From assembly GCA_000720995.1 (NCBI GenBank), contig JOEL01000017.1, positions 1-64,000 on the forward strand: DNA of 64,000 bases. The letters are read 5' to 3'. A model generated the notes under the pieces. The model did not search any database. It saw only the letters and a list, made by a program, of their open reading frames with translations, and was not told where the DNA came from. Positions 241 to 44,057 of this stretch are shown piece after piece. The position numbers were made by a program, and so were the translations under genes. The stretch's first letter is position 1. Each line of letters begins with the position of its first letter. The DNA comes from Streptomyces celluloflavus. Lineage in GTDB: Bacteria; Actinomycetota; Actinomycetes; Streptomycetales; Streptomycetaceae.

Positions 241-972
241 TCACCGCAGCGCGGCCGACCCGATCACCTCGCCGAGCATCGTCTGCTCGTCCTCCGGGAG
301 CCGGCGCGCCGCATGCACCATGTGCAGCGCGGTCCGCAGCCGCAGCCGGTCGTCGTCCGTACCGAGGTAGCCCAGATAGGCCGGGAGCGTCAGTCCGAGC
401 GCCGGGAGCTCGGCCCGCGCACACCACCGCGCCAGCAGTTCGCCGATCCGCTCATCGACGGCCCATGGCCCGGCCTGCTCACCACCACCTTCGCCCGCGG
501 CCCCCGCCCCGGCTTCCAGACCCGGCAGCCCCTCAGCCGTGCTCCGCAATCCCGCCGCGACGGCGAACCGGTTCCAGTCGCCGTACCGCCCCTCGGGTAT
601 CTCGGACACACACTCGGCGGCCCGGACGAAATAGGCGTGTGCCAGGTCGAGTTGGCCGAGCTTCTGGTACGCATGGCCGATGTTCACGTACAGCGACGGA
701 TAGAAGCCCCGTACCCGCTCGTCGCCCACCAGGTCAGCGCGGTCCAGACATTCCTGGTTCCAGCGGAGCGTCTCTTCGGGCGAGCTCTGGTGCCGCGCGA
801 GATAGTGCGCGGCGATGCACGCCTCGTAGTCGTCGGCCGCGATGTCCCAGGCCCGCCGGAAGAGTGTGTGCGCCGCATCGGCCCGGCCGTCCGCCTCCGC
901 CCGCATCCCCTCGACACACAACCTCACCACCGGAAGCTCCGGATCCATCCGGGTGCCGCTCTCCTCAGCCAT
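241..972 (-). CDS. TPR-like helical repeat protein, unknown function
   Basis: A 243-residue protein made almost wholly of amphipathic helices. The first 130 residues look like degenerate tetratricopeptide repeats, for example AHTLFRRAWDIAADD and GHAYQKLGQLDLAHAYF. Residues 150-170 are Gly/Ala-rich and act as a linker to a second helical part. There is no signal peptide or membrane segment, so it should be cytoplasmic. Its ATG overlaps the stop of the upstream MerR-clamp gene by one base (TGATG), so the two are probably translationally coupled and work together. TPR proteins usually bind other proteins; the partner is unknown, the fusion regulator being the obvious candidate. Confidence 0.7.
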   Translation of the reverse strand: MAEESGTRMDPELPVVRLCVEGMRAEADGRADAAHTLFRRAWDIAADDYEACIAAHYLARHQSSPEETLRWNQECLDRADLVGDERVRGFYPSLYVNIGHAYQKLGQLDLAHAYFVRAAECVSEIPEGRYGDWNRFAVAAGLRSTAEGLPGLEAGAGAAGEGGGEQAGPWAVDERIGELLARWCARAELPALGLTLPAYLGYLGTDDDRLRLRTALHMVHAARRLPEDEQTMLGEVIGSAALR

Positions 973-2171
973 CAGCCTCTCCCTGCCTCAACCATCGGTG
1001 CGGCCGGCGCCGGCACGTCGCGCAGCGGCATCACCAACGTCGTGAAACTTCCCTGGTCGGCGGAGCGGACAACGACGGGCCGGTCCGCTGAAGCGATCTC
1101 CAACAACACATCGGGCCCCACCCCGGCCTCCAGCGCCGGCACAAGTACGGCCGGATCGAAGGCGATCCGCAGCGCCGGTCCCGTACACACCGCCCGCAAC
1201 CGGACGGTGTCCCGCTCCCCGCCCGCCACTTCGAGTTCCGCCCCGGTCTTCCGCTGTCCCGCCACGCCATCCGCGCGGACGGTGAACGACACCACGCCGG
1301 CCCGCCCGTCGATTGCGTCCCGCAGCCCGCCCCGGTCGGTGATGATCCGATGCCGCCCGGCCGCCAGCCCCTCCAGCATCAACCGGTAATCCGGAAACAC
1401 CCCGCACTCCCCGCGGGTGCTCCACCCAGCACCCTCGCCCTCCCACCGCGCCGGGAAGTCCTCCACGCCCCGCAGCCGAACCCCCGCGACGGCCTCCGTC
1501 CCCGTCCCTTCCTCCTCCGCACACTCCACCTCGACCGCCCCCTGCCGTACGGCCCAGTCCGCCAGCCCCCGCGCCGCGGCCGCGTCGATCAGCACCCGCC
1601 GCGGCCCGCCCTCGAAGTCCGCGGACCGCAGTACCCGCACCGCCAGTCGGTAACGGTCCGTGGCCACCAGCCGGACCTCGCCGTCGACGAGTTCGAGCAG
1701 CACACAGCCCAGCACCGGGAACTCCGCACGCGCCGCACCAGCGGCCACCGCGGGCGCCACCTGCCGTACCGCGCTGGCGAGTTCGGCGCCCCCGATACGA
1801 GCCCGCGCCCGAACCCGCCCGCACTCCGTCTCCCCCTCCACATCGCGCAGGAACCCCTCCAGCACCGTCTGGGCCGCACTGGCCGACCGCCGCGTCCGCT
1901 CCAGATGCCCCCGCAGTACGCCACGCGCCGCGTCCCCGGGCCCGTCCAGTACGACCGCGACATCCACCAACGCCAGCCCGGCCTCCCGCAACCGCCGCAG
2001 CCGCACCGCCCGCCCGCGCTGACCCGCCGCGTAGTGCCGATACCCAGTCGTCGCGTCCACCCGAGCCGGCCGCAGCACCCCGCAGTCGTCGTAAAACCGC
2101 AGGGCACTGGGCGTCAGCCCGACCCGCCGGGCAAACGCGCCGATGCTCAACAGCTCTTCGGTGTCGTCCAT
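972..2171 (-). CDS. MerR-type HTH fused to DNA sliding-clamp (beta-subunit) domains
   Basis: The 399-residue protein begins with a MerR winged-helix domain (residues 8-75: SIGAFARRVGLTPSALRFYDD, then GYRHYA). A helical linker (80-125) follows. Residues 128-245 match the second domain of the replicative clamp DnaN encoded at 42.9 kb: FPVLG...VRLVATDRYRLAVR parallels LPVLTG...VTLASTDRYRFAVR. Residues 258-385 match clamp domain 3, including FPDYR, ALRIAFDPAVL and the terminal LVMPLR (LIMPVR in DnaN). Clamp domain 1 is absent. The family is annotated in Streptomyces as MerR regulator or DnaN-like, but its role is not established. A ligand- or protein-sensing regulator, or a clamp-interacting factor, are both possible. 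The upstream promoter has MerR architecture, suggesting self-regulation. Confidence 0.85.
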   Translation of the reverse strand: MDDTEELLSIGAFARRVGLTPSALRFYDDCGVLRPARVDATTGYRHYAAGQRGRAVRLRRLREAGLALVDVAVVLDGPGDAARGVLRGHLERTRRSASAAQTVLEGFLRDVEGETECGRVRARARIGGAELASAVRQVAPAVAAGAARAEFPVLGCVLLELVDGEVRLVATDRYRLAVRVLRSADFEGGPRRVLIDAAAARGLADWAVRQGAVEVECAEEEGTGTEAVAGVRLRGVEDFPARWEGEGAGWSTRGECGVFPDYRLMLEGLAAGRHRIITDRGGLRDAIDGRAGVVSFTVRADGVAGQRKTGAELEVAGGERDTVRLRAVCTGPALRIAFDPAVLVPALEAGVGPDVLLEIASADRPVVVRSADQGSFTTLVMPLRDVPAPAAPMVEAGRG

Positions 2172-2178
2172 GCACGCG

Positions 2179-2209
2179 ATTGTCGGCCTTCACCCAACCT
2201 GAAGGTCAA
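2179..2209 (-). promoter_or_regulatory. MerR-type promoter with 19-bp spacer and internal dyad
   Basis: Read on the minus strand, TTGACC (2204-2209) and GACAAT (2179-2184) are separated by 19 bp, the long spacer typical of MerR-activated promoters. A perfect inverted repeat CCTTCA-N7-TGAAGG (2187-2205) fills the spacer. The predicted transcription start is at about 2172, next to the ATG at 2171, so the mRNA should be leaderless. No transcription data were available. Confidence 0.7.
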
Positions 2210-3102: not shown

Positions 3103-3525
3103 TCAGCGGACCGGTGTCGTCTGGGCCAGGGCGATGAGCCAGTCGTCGCCTTGGCGGGTCAAGACGTAGGTCATGACACCGACCGAGGGCAGGTCCGACG
3201 AGCCCTCCGTCTCGTACCGTTCGTCGTGGACGGTCTTGGTGAGGCTGACGATGGCGACGTCGGGGGTGGTGAACCGAATATCGTCGACCTCCAGCGAGGT
3301 CCGGATGTCCTTGAGCGGGGAAGAGAGCGCTTCGGCCATGGCCGAAGCGAAGGCATCACGCCCGAAGAGGCGCCGACCAGCCAAGTTGACGATCACCAAG
3401 TTTGCGGCGTGCAGCGCAGGCAGCACGTCCGGGTCGATCTGCGCCTTCTGGGACCGCGCTACCAACTCGCGGATCCGCTGCTCGTCGGCGTCGTTGGCGG
3501 GGAGGGTGGAGTTCATGGTGTCCAT
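3103..3525 (-). CDS. SnoaL-like / SgcJ-EcaC family protein (NTF2 fold)
   Basis: A 140-residue protein with the small cone-shaped NTF2-like fold: two N-terminal helices (residues 14-35), the stretch VNLAGRRLFGRDAFASAM, and C-terminal strands ending VGVMTYVLTRQGDDWLIALAQTTPVR. This is the SgcJ/EcaC (DUF4440-like) pattern. Members occur in antibiotic clusters and as stand-alone genes, usually with no defined reaction. No signal peptide is visible. It stands alone behind a SoxR/MerR-type palindrome and the transcript appears leaderless, so redox or xenobiotic induction is plausible. An internal ATG at 3516 is an alternative start, but the promoter position favours 3525. Confidence 0.75.
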   Translation of the reverse strand: MDTMNSTLPANDADEQRIRELVARSQKAQIDPDVLPALHAANLVIVNLAGRRLFGRDAFASAMAEALSSPLKDIRTSLEVDDIRFTTPDVAIVSLTKTVHDERYETEGSSDLPSVGVMTYVLTRQGDDWLIALAQTTPVR

Positions 3526-3681: not shown

Positions 3682-5160
3682 TCACGTCTGCGCCATGTCC
3701 ACGAACCGCGAGTAGTGGCCCTGGAACGCCACGGTAATCGTCGCAGTGGGGCCGTTACGGTGCTTCGCCACGATCAGGTCGGCCTCGCCCGCGCGGGGGG
3801 ACTCCTTCTCGTAGGCGTCCTCGCGGTGCAGCAGGATCACCATGTCGGCGTCCTGCTCGATCGAACCGGATTCACGCAGGTCGGAGACCATCGGCTTCTT
3901 GTCCGTGCGCTGCTCGGGACCACGGTTCAGCTGCGAGAGCGCGATGACCGGCAGCTCCAGTTCCTTCGCGAGCAGCTTGAGGTTTCGGGACATGTCCGAG
4001 ACCTCCTGCTGACGGCTCTCGGCGCGCTTCGAGCCGCCGGACTGCATCAGCTGGAGATAGTCGATGACCACCAGCTTCAGGTCGTTGCGCTGCTTGAGCC
4101 GGCGGCATTTCGCGCGGATCTCCATCATCGACAGGTTCGGTGAATCGTCGATGTACAGGGGGGCGGCCGAGACATCCGGCATCCGCCGCGCCAGCCGCGT
4201 CCAGTCCTCGTCCGTCATGCTGCCGGATCGCATGTGGTGCAGCGCCACCCGGGCCTCGGCGGACAACAGACGCATCGCGATCTCGTTGCGCCCCATTTCG
4301 AGCGAGAAGATCACGCTCGGCAGATTGCTCTTGATCGAACAGGCCCGCGCGAAGTCCAGCGCGAGCGTCGACTTACCCATGGCAGGACGGGCCGCGATCA
4401 CGATCATCTGGCCCGGGTGCAGACCGTTGGTCAGGGAATCAAGGTCGGTGAAGCCGGTGGGAACGCCGGTCATCTGGCCCTGGCGCGAGCCGATCGCCTC
4501 GATCTCGTCGAGGGCGCCCTCCATGATGTCGCCGAGCGGCAGATAGTCCTCACTGGTCCGCTGCTCGGTGACGGCGTAGATCTCCGCCTGGGCGCTGTTG
4601 ACGATTTCGTCGACGTCGCCGTCCGCGGCGTATCCCATCTGCGTGATCCGGGTGCCGGCCTCGACCAGCCGGCGCAGTACGGCCCGTTCGTGGACGATCT
4701 CCGCGTAGTACTCGGCGTTCGCGGCCGTCGGCACGGACTGGACGAGGGTGTGCAGATACGATGCGCCGCCGACCCGCGCGATCTCCCCGCGCTTGGTCAG
4801 CTCCGCCGCGATGGTGATGGGATCGGCCGGCTCACCCTTGGCGTACAGATCGAGGATCGCCTGGAAGACGAGTTCATGGGCCGGGCGGTAGAAGTCGTCG
4901 CCCTTGAGCACCTCGACGACATCCGCGATGGCGTCCTTGGACAGCAGCATGCCGCCGAGCACCGACTGCTCGGCGTCCAGGTCCTGCGGGGGCACCCGCT
5001 CGAAGCCACCGGCCCAGGAGCCGCCCTCATCGTCGCCGCGGTCCTGGCGGTCACCGCGGCCGCGGCCCTTGCCCTCGCCGCGGCGGGAACGGGCGGCCGG
5101 CAGTCGGTCGCTCGGACCGGAGTCCGCCCAGGGGTCCTCCACGGGCTCGGGCATGCTCAC
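3682..5160 (-). CDS. dnaB: Replicative DNA helicase DnaB
   Basis: A hexameric 5'-3' helicase that unwinds the chromosome ahead of the replication fork. The 492-residue protein has a basic, Gly/Arg/Asp-rich N-terminal extension (about 50 residues), the DnaB N-terminal helical domain (57-160), a linker, and the RecA-like motor domain. The latter has Walker A ARPAMGKST (257-265), Walker B VVIDYLQL (364-371) and ALSQLNR (407-413). The GTG at 5160 follows GGAGG with good spacing; an ATG two codons later is also possible. It is not in an operon with its neighbours. Four DnaA-box-like sites lie upstream. The probable loader DciA is encoded at 46.4 kb. No intein is present. Confidence 0.97.
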   Translation of the reverse strand: MSMPEPVEDPWADSGPSDRLPAARSRRGEGKGRGRGDRQDRGDDEGGSWAGGFERVPPQDLDAEQSVLGGMLLSKDAIADVVEVLKGDDFYRPAHELVFQAILDLYAKGEPADPITIAAELTKRGEIARVGGASYLHTLVQSVPTAANAEYYAEIVHERAVLRRLVEAGTRITQMGYAADGDVDEIVNSAQAEIYAVTEQRTSEDYLPLGDIMEGALDEIEAIGSRQGQMTGVPTGFTDLDSLTNGLHPGQMIVIAARPAMGKSTLALDFARACSIKSNLPSVIFSLEMGRNEIAMRLLSAEARVALHHMRSGSMTDEDWTRLARRMPDVSAAPLYIDDSPNLSMMEIRAKCRRLKQRNDLKLVVIDYLQLMQSGGSKRAESRQQEVSDMSRNLKLLAKELELPVIALSQLNRGPEQRTDKKPMVSDLRESGSIEQDADMVILLHREDAYEKESPRAGEADLIVAKHRNGPTATITVAFQGHYSRFVDMAQT

Positions 5161-40072: not shown

Positions 40073-41905
40073 GTGGCTGACGTACCTGCCGATCTTGCCG
40101 CAGTGTGGCCGCGCGTCCTCGACCATCTCCTACGTGCCGACGGCGACAGCCTCAAGCCCAAGGACCAGGACTGGCTCAAGCGCACCCAGCCCCTGGCGCT
40201 GGTTGCCGACACCGCGCTGCTCGCCGTCCCCAACGAGTTCGCCAAGGGCGTGCTCGAAGGCCGGCTCGCCCCCCTGATCGGGGAGGCCCTCAGCCAGCAG
40301 TGCGGGCGGCCGATCCGGATCGCGATCACCGTCGACGACTCCGCCGAGGAGCCCCCGGCGCAGTCCGCGCCGCCCGTTCCTCCGCAGCAGGCTCAGCACC
40401 AGGCACCCCAGCAGCCGCACGATGCGTACGACGGCTACGACAACAGGCAGGGATACGGGCGCCAGGGCGACGACCTCCCCTCCGTACGTCCCGCCTACCC
40501 CGGCTACCAGCAGCCCCGGCACGAGCAGGGTTCCTGGCCGCAGCACTCCCCCGGTATGGGCGGCGGCCCGCGTGAGGACTACGGCTGGCAGCAGCAGCGC
40601 CTCGGCGGTTTCCCCGAGCGCGACCCGTACGCCTCCCCGCCCTCGCACGTACAGCAGCACCAGCAGAACGACTACCGTTCGCAGGTTCCCGAGCGACCCG
40701 GTCCGCCCCAGCGCTCGGACGGTCCGCACTCCCCTTATGACCAGCCGCCGCGCCGCGACCTCACCGAGCACCAGGCCCCCGGGCACAACGGCCGCTCCGG
40801 GCCGCCCGCGCCCAGCGGTGCGCCCGGTCCGCTCGCGGCGCAGCCCGCGCCCGCGGCCGGCCCCGGTGAGCCGACCGCGCGGCTGAATCCGAAGTACCTC
40901 TTCGACACCTTCGTCATCGGTGCCTCGAACCGCTTCGCGCACGCCGCCGCGGTCGCCGTCGCCGAGGCGCCGGCCAAGGCGTACAACCCGCTGTTCATCT
41001 ACGGCGAGTCGGGTCTCGGCAAGACCCATCTGCTGCACGCGATCGGGCACTACGCGCGCAGCCTCTATCCGGGCACCCGCGTGCGGTACGTGAGCTCGGA
41101 GGAGTTCACCAACGAGTTCATCAACTCCATCCGCGACGGCAAGGCGGACGCGTTCCGCAAGCGCTACCGCGATATGGACATCCTGCTCGTCGACGACATC
41201 CAGTTCCTGGCGAGCAAGGAGTCGACGCAGGAGGAGTTCTTCCACACCTTCAATACGCTGCACAACGCGAACAAGCAGATCGTGCTCTCCAGTGACCGGC
41301 CGCCCAAGCAGCTGGTCACCCTGGAGGACCGGCTGCGCAACCGCTTCGAATGGGGTCTGATCACGGACGTCCAGCCGCCCGAGCTGGAGACCCGGATCGC
41401 GATCCTCCGCAAGAAGGCGGTGCAGGAGCAGCTGAACGCGCCGCCCGAGGTGCTGGAGTTCATCGCGTCCCGGATCTCGCGGAACATCCGTGAGCTGGAG
41501 GGCGCGCTGATCCGGGTCACGGCGTTCGCCTCGCTCAACCGGCAGCCGGTGGACCTGGGGCTCACCGAGATCGTGCTGAAGGATCTGATCCCCGGTGGCG
41601 AGGACGCCGCGCCGGAGATCACCGCGACCGCGATCATGGCCGCGACCGCCGACTACTTCGGGCTGACCATCGACGACCTGTGCGGCTCCTCGCGCAGCCG
41701 GGTGCTGGTGACGGCCCGCCAGATCGCGATGTATCTGTGCCGTGAGCTGACCGACCTCTCGCTGCCGAAGATCGGTGCGCAGTTCGGCGGCCGCGACCAT
41801 ACGACGGTGATGCACGCCGACCGCAAGATCCGCGCGCTGATGGCCGAGCGGCGCTCCATCTACAACCAGGTCACCGAACTGACCAACCGCATCAAGAACG
41901 GCTGA
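40073..41905 (+). CDS. dnaA: Chromosomal replication initiator DnaA
   Basis: A 610-residue AAA+ initiator which binds DnaA boxes and opens oriC. Domain I covers about 1-85 ([19 protein letters not shown]). A long disordered Pro/Gln/Gly-rich domain II (about 95-275) is a Streptomyces trait. Domain III has Walker [10 protein letters not shown] (about 311-319) and Walker [13 protein letters not shown]; arginine-finger region is in [10 protein letters not shown]. Domain IV ends with the DNA-binding signature [15 protein letters not shown]. The GTG at 40073 is used. Confidence 0.98.
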
Positions 41906-42926: not shown

Positions 42927-44057
42927 GTGAAGATCCGGGTGGAGCGCGATGTACTCGCGGAGGCGGTGGCCTGGGCGGCCAAGAGCCTCCCGGCCCGTCC
43001 GCCGGTGCCCGTCCTCGCGGGCCTGCTGCTGAAGGCGGAGGACGGCAGCCTGAGCCTCTCCGGCTTCGACTACGAGGTCTCGGCGCGGGTCTCGGTGGAC
43101 GCCGATGTGGAGGAGGACGGCACCGTCCTCGTCTCCGGCCGGCTGCTCGCCGACATCTGCCGGGCCCTCCCCAACCGGCCGGTGGAGATTTCCACCGACG
43201 GTGTACGAGTGACCGTGGTCTGCGGTTCCTCCCGGTTCACCCTCCACACCCTCCCTGTGGAGGAGTACCCGTCGCTGCCGACGATGCCCACCGCCACCGG
43301 CACCGTTCCCGGTGAGGTCTTCGCCGCGGCCGCCGCCCAGGTGGCCATCGCCGCCGGCCGTGACGACACCCTCCCGGTGCTCACCGGCGTCCGTATCGAG
43401 ATCGAGGGCGACACCGTCACCCTGGCCTCCACCGACCGCTACCGCTTCGCGGTGCGCGAGTTCCTGTGGAAGCCCGAGAGCCCGGACGCCTCCGCGGTCG
43501 CGCTGGTCCCCGCAAAGACGCTGCTGGACACCGCCAAGTCGCTGAGCAGCGGCGACACCGTCACGCTGGCGCTGTCCGGCTCCGGTGCGGGCGAGGGCCT
43601 GATCGGTTTCGAGGGTGCCGGGCGGCGGACGACGACCCGTCTGCTGGAGGGCGACCTGCCCAAGTACCGCACCCTCTTCCCGACGGAGTTCAACTCGGTC
43701 GCCGTGATCGAGACCGCGCCGTTCGTCGAGGCCGTCAAGCGTGTGGCGCTGGTGGCCGAGCGGAACACCCCGGTCCGGCTGAGCTTCGAGCAGGGTGTGC
43801 TGATCCTGGAGGCCGGCTCCAGCGACGATGCACAGGCTGTGGAGCGGGTGGACTCCGATCTGGACGGCGACGACATCTCCATCGCCTTCAACCCGGGCTT
43901 CCTGCTGGAGGGCCTGTCGGCCATCGACTCCCCCGTGGCCCAGCTGTCCTTCACGACCTCGACCAAGCCCGCGCTGCTCAGCGGCCGCCCGGCCAAGGAC
44001 GCCGAGGCGGACGACGCGTACAAGTACCTGATCATGCCGGTGCGGCTGTCCGGCTGA
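42927..44057 (+). CDS. dnaN: DNA polymerase III sliding clamp (beta)
   Basis: A 376-residue clamp of three similar domains. It starts KIRVERDVLAEAVAWAAKSLP. TDRYRFAVREFLW in domain 2 is mirrored in the MerR-clamp fusion at the left of this window; the C-terminus YLIMPVRLSG binds partner peptides. GTG 42927 has GGAGG seven to ten bases upstream. The frame continues open through oriC but that part has no coding character. dnaN is followed by gnd after 273 bases. Confidence 0.97.
   Translation: MKIRVERDVLAEAVAWAAKSLPARPPVPVLAGLLLKAEDGSLSLSGFDYEVSARVSVDADVEEDGTVLVSGRLLADICRALPNRPVEISTDGVRVTVVCGSSRFTLHTLPVEEYPSLPTMPTATGTVPGEVFAAAAAQVAIAAGRDDTLPVLTGVRIEIEGDTVTLASTDRYRFAVREFLWKPESPDASAVALVPAKTLLDTAKSLSSGDTVTLALSGSGAGEGLIGFEGAGRRTTTRLLEGDLPKYRTLFPTEFNSVAVIETAPFVEAVKRVALVAERNTPVRLSFEQGVLILEAGSSDDAQAVERVDSDLDGDDISIAFNPGFLLEGLSAIDSPVAQLSFTTSTKPALLSGRPAKDAEADDAYKYLIMPVRLSG

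Follow-up and report, generated by a model that had tools for sequence, protein, structure and literature searches.

We describe a protein in which a MerR-type DNA-binding domain is joined to the second and third domains of a bacterial sliding clamp. Part of the clamp's binding pocket has been selectively kept in this protein, and the surface that joins clamp subunits into a ring has been lost. We propose that it is probably a self-inducing switch, a MerR activator with a decoy clamp arm that answers to a ligand of the pocket, whatever that ligand is. Three observations led to the idea of a decoy sensor: retention of the pocket with loss of the ring, a closed gene layout that suggests autoregulation, and, in one subfamily, signs of a double product like that of TipA.

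Results

A MerR domain joined to two clamp domains

The gene lies in a stretch of 64,000 nucleotides (the window, that is, the whole of the DNA analysed), which starts at base 1 of its own contig and covers oriC and its surroundings in a Streptomyces-type genome; the relatives named were from Streptomyces and Saccharopolyspora. The genes of the window that matter here, and the parts of the fusion, are the following.

40073-41905, in the window: DnaA
about 42927-44057, in the window: DnaN
3682-5160, minus strand: replicative helicase DnaB (named by eye)
972..2171, minus strand: MerR-clamp fusion gene P0001, 399 amino acids, ATG at 2171 and TGA at 974-972
1944..2147, minus strand: MerR winged-helix DNA-binding domain, residues 9-76 (Pfam MerR_1, E 2.5e-10)
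1830..1937, minus strand: helical linker, residues 79-114 (helix 79-112 in the AlphaFold model)
1362..1817, minus strand: clamp domain 2, about residues 119-270 (hhalign against the window's DnaN and pocket mapping; border approximate)
1017..1361, minus strand: clamp domain 3, about residues 271-385 (hhalign against the window's DnaN and pocket mapping)
241..972, minus strand: TPR-repeat protein gene, 243 amino acids (TPR models match below their cut-offs)

From its N terminus the protein thus runs through the MerR domain, a helix and clamp domains 2 and 3. The pocket motifs ATDRYRLAVR and FPDYR sit in clamp domain 2, and the C-terminal TTLVMPLR in clamp domain 3, where the dimer-interface residues are lost. 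The original prediction had read the gene as a MerR domain joined to two clamp domains, and this was confirmed by the MerR_1 match and by alignment of a profile of fusions with DnaN. The motifs on which that reading was based are all present (TDRYRLAVR, IAFDP and LVMPLR in the fusion; TDRYRFAVR, IAFNP and LIMPVR in the window's DnaN). The linker helix, presumed to be the MerR dimerisation helix, is modelled at low confidence, with a pLDDT that drops to some 40 where it ends (AlphaFold). In the PDB, the single fusion sequence finds TipA's N-terminal domain as its best match. Within the same genome, other MerR proteins gave eight weaker matches, over the MerR part only. A second MerR fusion of this genome (L002, 1474-2580 on contig C29) has a C-terminal half that looks PP2C phosphatase-like by eye. 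Between the fusion gene and dnaB, at 3103-3525 of the window, lies a gene for a small SgcJ/EcaC-type (DUF4440) protein.

A profile search against MerR and beta-clamp families, which had been suggested as a check, placed the MerR domain over cut-off (MerR_1 40.7 bits against 21.6, MerR 35.2 bits against 28.2, in Pfam); the clamp was settled through the profile of the relatives. With the single window sequence, the Pfam models DNA_pol3_beta_2 and beta_3 scored 26.7 and 17.3 bits against a cut-off of 27 in each case, and TIGR00663 scored 38.8 bits, well under its cut-off of 137.65. These sub-threshold scores may explain why such proteins are named 'MerR family transcriptional regulator'. Among distant fusions, DNA_pol3_beta_2 was above cut-off in all five that were scanned. 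A profile built from 12 fusions aligned with residues 120-374 of the window's DnaN (hhalign, probability 98.6%, E 7e-16), their counterpart in the fusion being residues 119-385, that is, domains 2 and 3 only; since this alignment begins at DnaN residue 120, clamp domain 1 is absent, as had been claimed. The same profile matched a mycobacterial clamp in the PDB with E 1.5e-31.

Structure prediction, another check proposed, recovered the clamp fold family by Foldseek from models of low confidence, so that the outcome named beforehand as refuting, no clamp fold in residues 128-385, did not arise. AlphaFold was run twice with seven sequences each, on the whole protein and on the clamp part alone, and mean pLDDT was 62 in both models. 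Of the 50 matches listed for each Foldseek search, all carry sliding-clamp titles but two, 8xla_A and 8xla_E (clamp-part search), which are titled as a mismatch repair complex; 8xla_A is named as a clamp in the PDB profile search. The whole model gave low TM-scores (0.24-0.29, rmsd 12-14 Å). Those of the clamp part alone were moderate (0.44-0.55), and its first match was a structure of the Mycobacterium tuberculosis clamp bound to a natural product (E 6e-12, query TM-score 0.49). Scores of this size support the clamp fold family, and the orientation of the domains in the models is not reliable. Large stretches of the clamp region vary freely among the fusions and carry insertions. The A and B rows (see below) of the 12-row alignment have in common, immediately ahead of the C-terminal MP motif, a stretch resembling RSA-(D/T)-x-G-x-(F/L)-TT, which is absent from the window's DnaN.

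Spread and descent of the fusions

A search with the clamp part, at E 1e-20 or better, gave matches in 36 of 392 genomes of the window's genus, and one with the full-length profile, at E 1e-35 or better, in 32 of 394 genomes of its class. Such a patchy distribution fits a device for responding to a ligand better than a housekeeping role in replication. In a sample of the phylum, fusions were found in 6 of 396 genomes (the window's own included), by a search with a single-sequence query that would miss subfamily C, defined below; taking all clamp-part matches of this sample as fusions was rejected, as 14 of the 20 matched genomes gave true DnaN.

Besides the window's own genome, loci were read from 29 of the 36 matching genus genomes (L019-L047), with 6 left out, and from 30 of the 32 matching class genomes, own included (G013 and G942 left out). 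We dropped L047 and L027 (broken frame or unclear start), L084 (split in two frames) and the repeats: L018 (of the window), L019 and L078 (of L009), L026 (of L011), and L048, L049, L052, L056 and L062 (of L076, L069, L068, L073 and L067, respectively). The fusion copies of L047 and L084 are broken between frames, and are either decaying genes or sequencing errors. This left 59 distinct fusions from the window's class for comparison, in subfamilies A (36, including the window), B (11) and C (12).

In a quick maximum-likelihood tree of clamp domains all 59 fusions fell on one branch (SH-aLRT 98) and 25 Actinomycetes DnaN on another (100), the two together being set apart from other DnaN (84). 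Subfamily B formed one branch (99), A formed one branch weakly (45), and C held together but for one row, L083, which we counted in C though it sits on a long branch beside A and B. The residue after TD is Arg in 59/59 fusions and 25/25 Actinomycetes DnaN, and Ser in 13/13 other DnaN. As the fusions form a single clade beside Actinomycetes DnaN and share with them the Arg of TDR, one old fusion event is the simplest reading.

The fusion also occurs on plasmids. In four plasmid copies a full-length fusion carries its promoter and has a TPR gene behind it, so the unit can move; all four records name the fusion only 'MerR family transcriptional regulator'. A phage or viral origin was considered and rejected: phage records held no relative, and viral contigs gave five pattern matches, none of which was confirmed.

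The pocket is kept and the ring is lost

According to passages of PMC11139829, subsite I of the clamp pocket takes the hydrophobic end of clamp-binding motifs, and ion pairs across the dimer interface join the two clamp subunits. Using the residue list in the same part of that paper, with E. coli numbering, we compared the 59 fusions with the majority residue of the 25 Actinomycetes DnaN. Mean identity in subsite I was 0.74 (12 columns) against 0.25 elsewhere, and none of 20,000 random column sets reached as high a value, in a test that takes columns as independent. The difference was also seen when only columns at least 80% conserved in DnaN were taken (0.87 over 9 columns against 0.32 over 77), and when the reference was a set of 15 mostly distant DnaN (0.64 against 0.30, P 0.0002). 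Thr172, Met362 and Pro363 are found in all 59 fusions, Leu155 and Pro242 in 58 and Arg176 in 57. Arg152, a residue of E. coli subsite I, is missing from the fusions, but Leu stands at this position in 24 of the 25 Actinomycetes DnaN as well.

Subsite II of the clamp takes the conserved Gln of the clamp-binding motif. Its identity over the 59 fusions was 0.47, and its retention was not significant (P 0.07). In subfamily A, Asn320 is changed to Asp in 36/36 and Tyr323 to Val in 34/36, with Arg365 kept in 24/36; in B, Tyr323 has become Thr in 9/11 and Arg365 is kept in 3/11. In subfamily C subsite II is mostly kept (Asn320 in 9/12, an aromatic residue at position 323 in 11/12, Arg365 in 11/12). 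This difference suggests that the ligand of A is probably unlike that of C. The original suggestion that the domain could bind clamp-type ligands gains support from the selective retention of subsite I, with subsite II altered in the window's subfamily.

The dimer interface has gone the other way, with identity of 0.04 (9 columns) against 0.29 (P 0.001). Arg269 is found in 5 of the 59 fusions, the 272/273 stretch is deleted in 53-58 of them, the number varying with the alignment, and Glu304 is replaced in every one; all of these are kept in 24 or 25 of the 25 Actinomycetes DnaN. With domain 1 gone and the domain-3 side of the interface lost too, a normal ring is impossible, in agreement with the original prediction. 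dN/dS was at most 0.60 in every part of the protein in 8/8 pairs, and 0.17-0.52 in the clamp part.

Second copies of DnaN with an altered pocket were seen at three loci, L176, L177 and L178 (genomes G874, G918 and G1010). Pro242 is replaced by Ile or Val in all three and Met362 by Gln in L178; they are possibly drug-tolerant clamps.

A promoter of the MerR type

Upstream of the fusion gene we found the following elements.

2204..2209, minus strand: -35 element TTGACC (from sequence comparison of fusion promoters)
2185..2207, minus strand: operator GACCTTCAGGTTGGGTGAAGGCC, an imperfect inverted repeat with 7 of its 12 positions paired
2185-2203, minus strand: 19-bp spacer between TTGACC and GACAAT
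2179..2184, minus strand: -10-like element GACAAT, followed by 7 nt and then the ATG at 2171

By sequence this is the MerR-family layout, with a 19-bp spacer between the -35 and -10-like boxes and an imperfect inverted repeat over it; spacers of 19-20 bp mark MerR-activated promoters, as part of PMC9909328 describes. The site at 2187-2205, where ChIP had been suggested, falls within the operator. The spacing of 7 nt from the -10-like element to the ATG suggests that the transcript is probably leaderless.

The arrangement recurs across the family. TTGACC or TTGACT lies upstream of 59/59 fusion genes, and in 55 of them at 37-38 nt before the chosen start codon; the others are off this distance through the choice of start codon (L030, L079 and L086) or because the script took a second TTGAC (L038). 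At a fixed centre, the inverted repeat of the 59 fusions has a mean of 7.4 of 12 pairs (range 3-12) against 3.1 after shuffling, and at least 6 of 12 pairs in 53/59 against 6% of shuffles; spacer length was read by script at a fixed offset. Most A genes have a clear -10-like hexamer; that of C genes is weak (CAGGGT in one case).

When 12 A-type genomes were searched with the whole promoter pattern, allowing up to 3 mismatches, each gave one site, at the gene itself, with 1 control match over all 12; the operator alone gave 2 extra sites, each with 3 mismatches, and 1 control match. A convincing operator was thus found only at the fusion's own promoter in 12/12 A-type genomes. This suggests that fusion and TPR partner form a closed unit that induces itself. 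The proposal that the protein would 'link replication state to transcription' implies, as worded, a wider regulon, for which this result gives no support.

A possible internal start in subfamily C

In 9/12 C genes a Shine-Dalgarno sequence with ATG or GTG lies at the domain junction (residues 105-128), as it does in 2/11 B and 0/36 A genes, the window's gene among the latter; elsewhere in these genes the combination occurs 0.67 times per ORF over about 300 codons. In L093 a Val written GTG takes the place of Met, and a start codon is still available. TipA provides a precedent, for which part of PMC7762955 describes two start codons that give TipAL and TipAS, autoregulation, and trapping of the drug by TipAS. 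By this analogy, an internal ribosome site in subfamily C would make the clamp part alone.

The TPR partner and other neighbours

In the window the start codon of the TPR gene overlaps the stop codon of the fusion by one base (TGATG), although the true start of the TPR protein may be the Met at residue 9. A TPR gene on the same strand follows the fusion in 29/36 A, 8/11 B and 0/12 C loci (37/47 for A and B together); 10/47 A/B fusions and 12/12 C fusions are without it. In the B-type locus L074 (G206), MerR, clamp domains and TPR protein are all encoded by a single ORF of 533 amino acids.

A single TPR copy was found in the window's own genome at a threshold of E 0.01. We also sought TPR relatives in 49 selected genus genomes, 42 without an A-type match and 7 without an adjacent TPR gene, and found one at E 1e-8 in 29 of them. 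In 13 of the best 20 of 32 places a uracil-DNA glycosylase gene lies near the TPR relative (L122-L124, L127-L129 and L131-L137), and in 4 of the best 20 of 32 a B-type fusion does. The uracil-DNA glycosylase neighbourhood hints at DNA repair rather than drug defence, and our guess is that the TPR protein is tied to DNA replication or repair.

A further conserved neighbour was looked for in 27 contexts called by a crude script (which called the fusion in 26), and rejected: besides TPR, no other family widely adjoins the fusion among the matches listed. Because of a common position, genes of the dnaB region turn up in as many as 7 contexts; an ABC-transporter ATPase family, which is common and was named by eye, appears in 7 of 27 contexts among the matches listed. 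Defence-system models matched neither the fusion nor the TPR protein. Two plasmid copies have neighbours of their own: on the Kitasatospora cathayae plasmid NZ_CP115452 (L138, 3778-5876) a PtuA/PtuB pair, a Septu-like defence, stands directly upstream of fusion and TPR gene, and on the Streptomyces plasmid pADI95-16b (L142, 8327-14006) dnaE and Ku genes precede them by a few kb.

Discussion

The self-inducing switch that we favour would work as follows. A dimer of the fusion would sit on the 19-bp spacer and hold its own promoter poorly active. A molecule docking in the clamp pocket would change the arm, upon which the MerR domain would untwist the spacer and RNA polymerase would make a leaderless transcript, yielding more sensor and TPR protein; free clamp domain would be made as well in subfamily C, from an internal ribosome site. 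The extra copies of the pocket could then sequester the ligand, in the way that TipAS traps thiostrepton, and true DnaN would be protected.

As to the ligand, the likeliest candidates would be antibiotics that, like griselimycin and mycoplanecin, bind the clamp pocket, and the next choice a clamp-binding protein of cellular, phage or plasmid origin. We put antibiotics first because natural products that bind the clamp pocket are known and are made by actinomycetes (passages of PMC10817943 and PMC5676206), and hold a switch with an antibiotic ligand as a tentative proposal. Equally tentative is its extension to a family of target mimics, in which an antibiotic's target, the clamp, has been cut down to the drug pocket and joined to MerR to give a self-inducing sensor and sponge. 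Griselimycin and mycoplanecin fill both subsites of the pocket, and their gene clusters hold a dnaN homologue, as described in part of PMC10817943. Given that griselimycin uses both subsites and that subsite II is eroded in A, griselimycin itself is perhaps not what the window's protein binds.

The same switch could instead sense clamp-binding proteins, whether made by the cell or foreign to it, the hydrophobic peptide tails of translesion or replicative polymerases, or of phage proteins that hijack the clamp, docking in subsite I; it would then report DNA damage, stalled forks or phage infection. We regard this version as rather unlikely. The part of the pocket that is kept is the seat of the hydrophobic end of clamp-binding motifs, as this version would have it, but the seat of the motif's conserved Gln is changed in A and B. 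The uracil-DNA glycosylase genes beside TPR relatives (13 of the best 20 of 32 loci) speak for it, as do the plasmid copy just after PtuA/PtuB and that near plasmid dnaE and Ku, although these defence and dnaE neighbours are single cases. Against it, the regulon seems limited to the protein's own operon (12 A-type genomes), and no match turned up in phage records or viral contigs.

Two further readings were considered. The clamp could be a structural leftover that only stabilises the dimer or keeps the protein soluble, on a MerR domain that regulates itself constitutively; the free variation and insertions over much of the clamp region would suit this, yet conservation is focused on the pocket and dN/dS of the clamp part is 0.17-0.52 in the 8 pairs, which makes this reading improbable. 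That the half clamp pairs with a subunit of true DnaN, by the ion pairs that join clamp subunits (passages of PMC11139829) and through a domain-3 side present in principle, and so reads free clamp, is scarcely credible, for that side is destroyed at Arg269, 272/273 and Glu304, which 24 or 25 of the 25 Actinomycetes DnaN keep.

The switch with a decoy clamp arm resembles several known systems in part. With the TipA class (TipAL/TipAS, SkgA and AlbA) the fusion shares the MerR N terminus, the one-gene design and an operator within the promoter of the gene itself. Subfamily C, mainly, shares also the second, internal start that would yield the ligand domain alone. The fusion differs in its effector, which is a clamp and not TipAS (PF07739 is not among the Pfam matches to E 1), and the window's gene, which lacks an internal start at the domain junction, is paired with a TPR gene instead. 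The multidrug MerR proteins, BmrR and EcmrR among them, also combine a MerR domain with a ligand arm and distort a long spacer, but their arm is a GyrI-like drug domain and not a clamp. With Actinomycetes DnaN the fusion shares domains 2 and 3, subsite I and the Arg after TD, and differs by the absence of domain 1, the lost dimer interface, the lack of a normal ring and a score below the TIGR00663 cut-off. GriR and MypR, of griselimycin and mycoplanecin producers, are likewise second clamp-derived proteins in actinomycetes, and their ligand is plausibly of a similar kind. By their description in part of PMC10817943, however, they are dnaN genes in antibiotic clusters; that part does not describe them as truncated or joined to a DNA-binding domain, whereas the window's fusion lacks domain 1.

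Judged by titles and the starts of abstracts, we found no description of a MerR-clamp fusion in the open-access literature. In the main texts on the griselimycin cluster, the words 'regulator' and 'MerR' are absent from PMC10817943 and 'regulator' from PMC5676206. MerR regulators with odd effector arms are already known; an arm made from the replication clamp appears to be new.

Our results suggest a likely role for plasmid genes that are named only 'MerR family transcriptional regulator'. Clamp-targeting antibiotics, the griselimycins and mycoplanecins, are leads against tuberculosis, and a natural sensor of the clamp pocket, if that is what the fusion is, would serve directly as a reporter in the search for others. 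It would also mean that soil bacteria often meet clamp-targeting compounds, some of which may still be undiscovered, and, if the target-mimic reading is true, that a widespread family of actinomycete transcription factors answers to them by mimicry of their target. An essential replication protein would then have been recast as a signal receptor.
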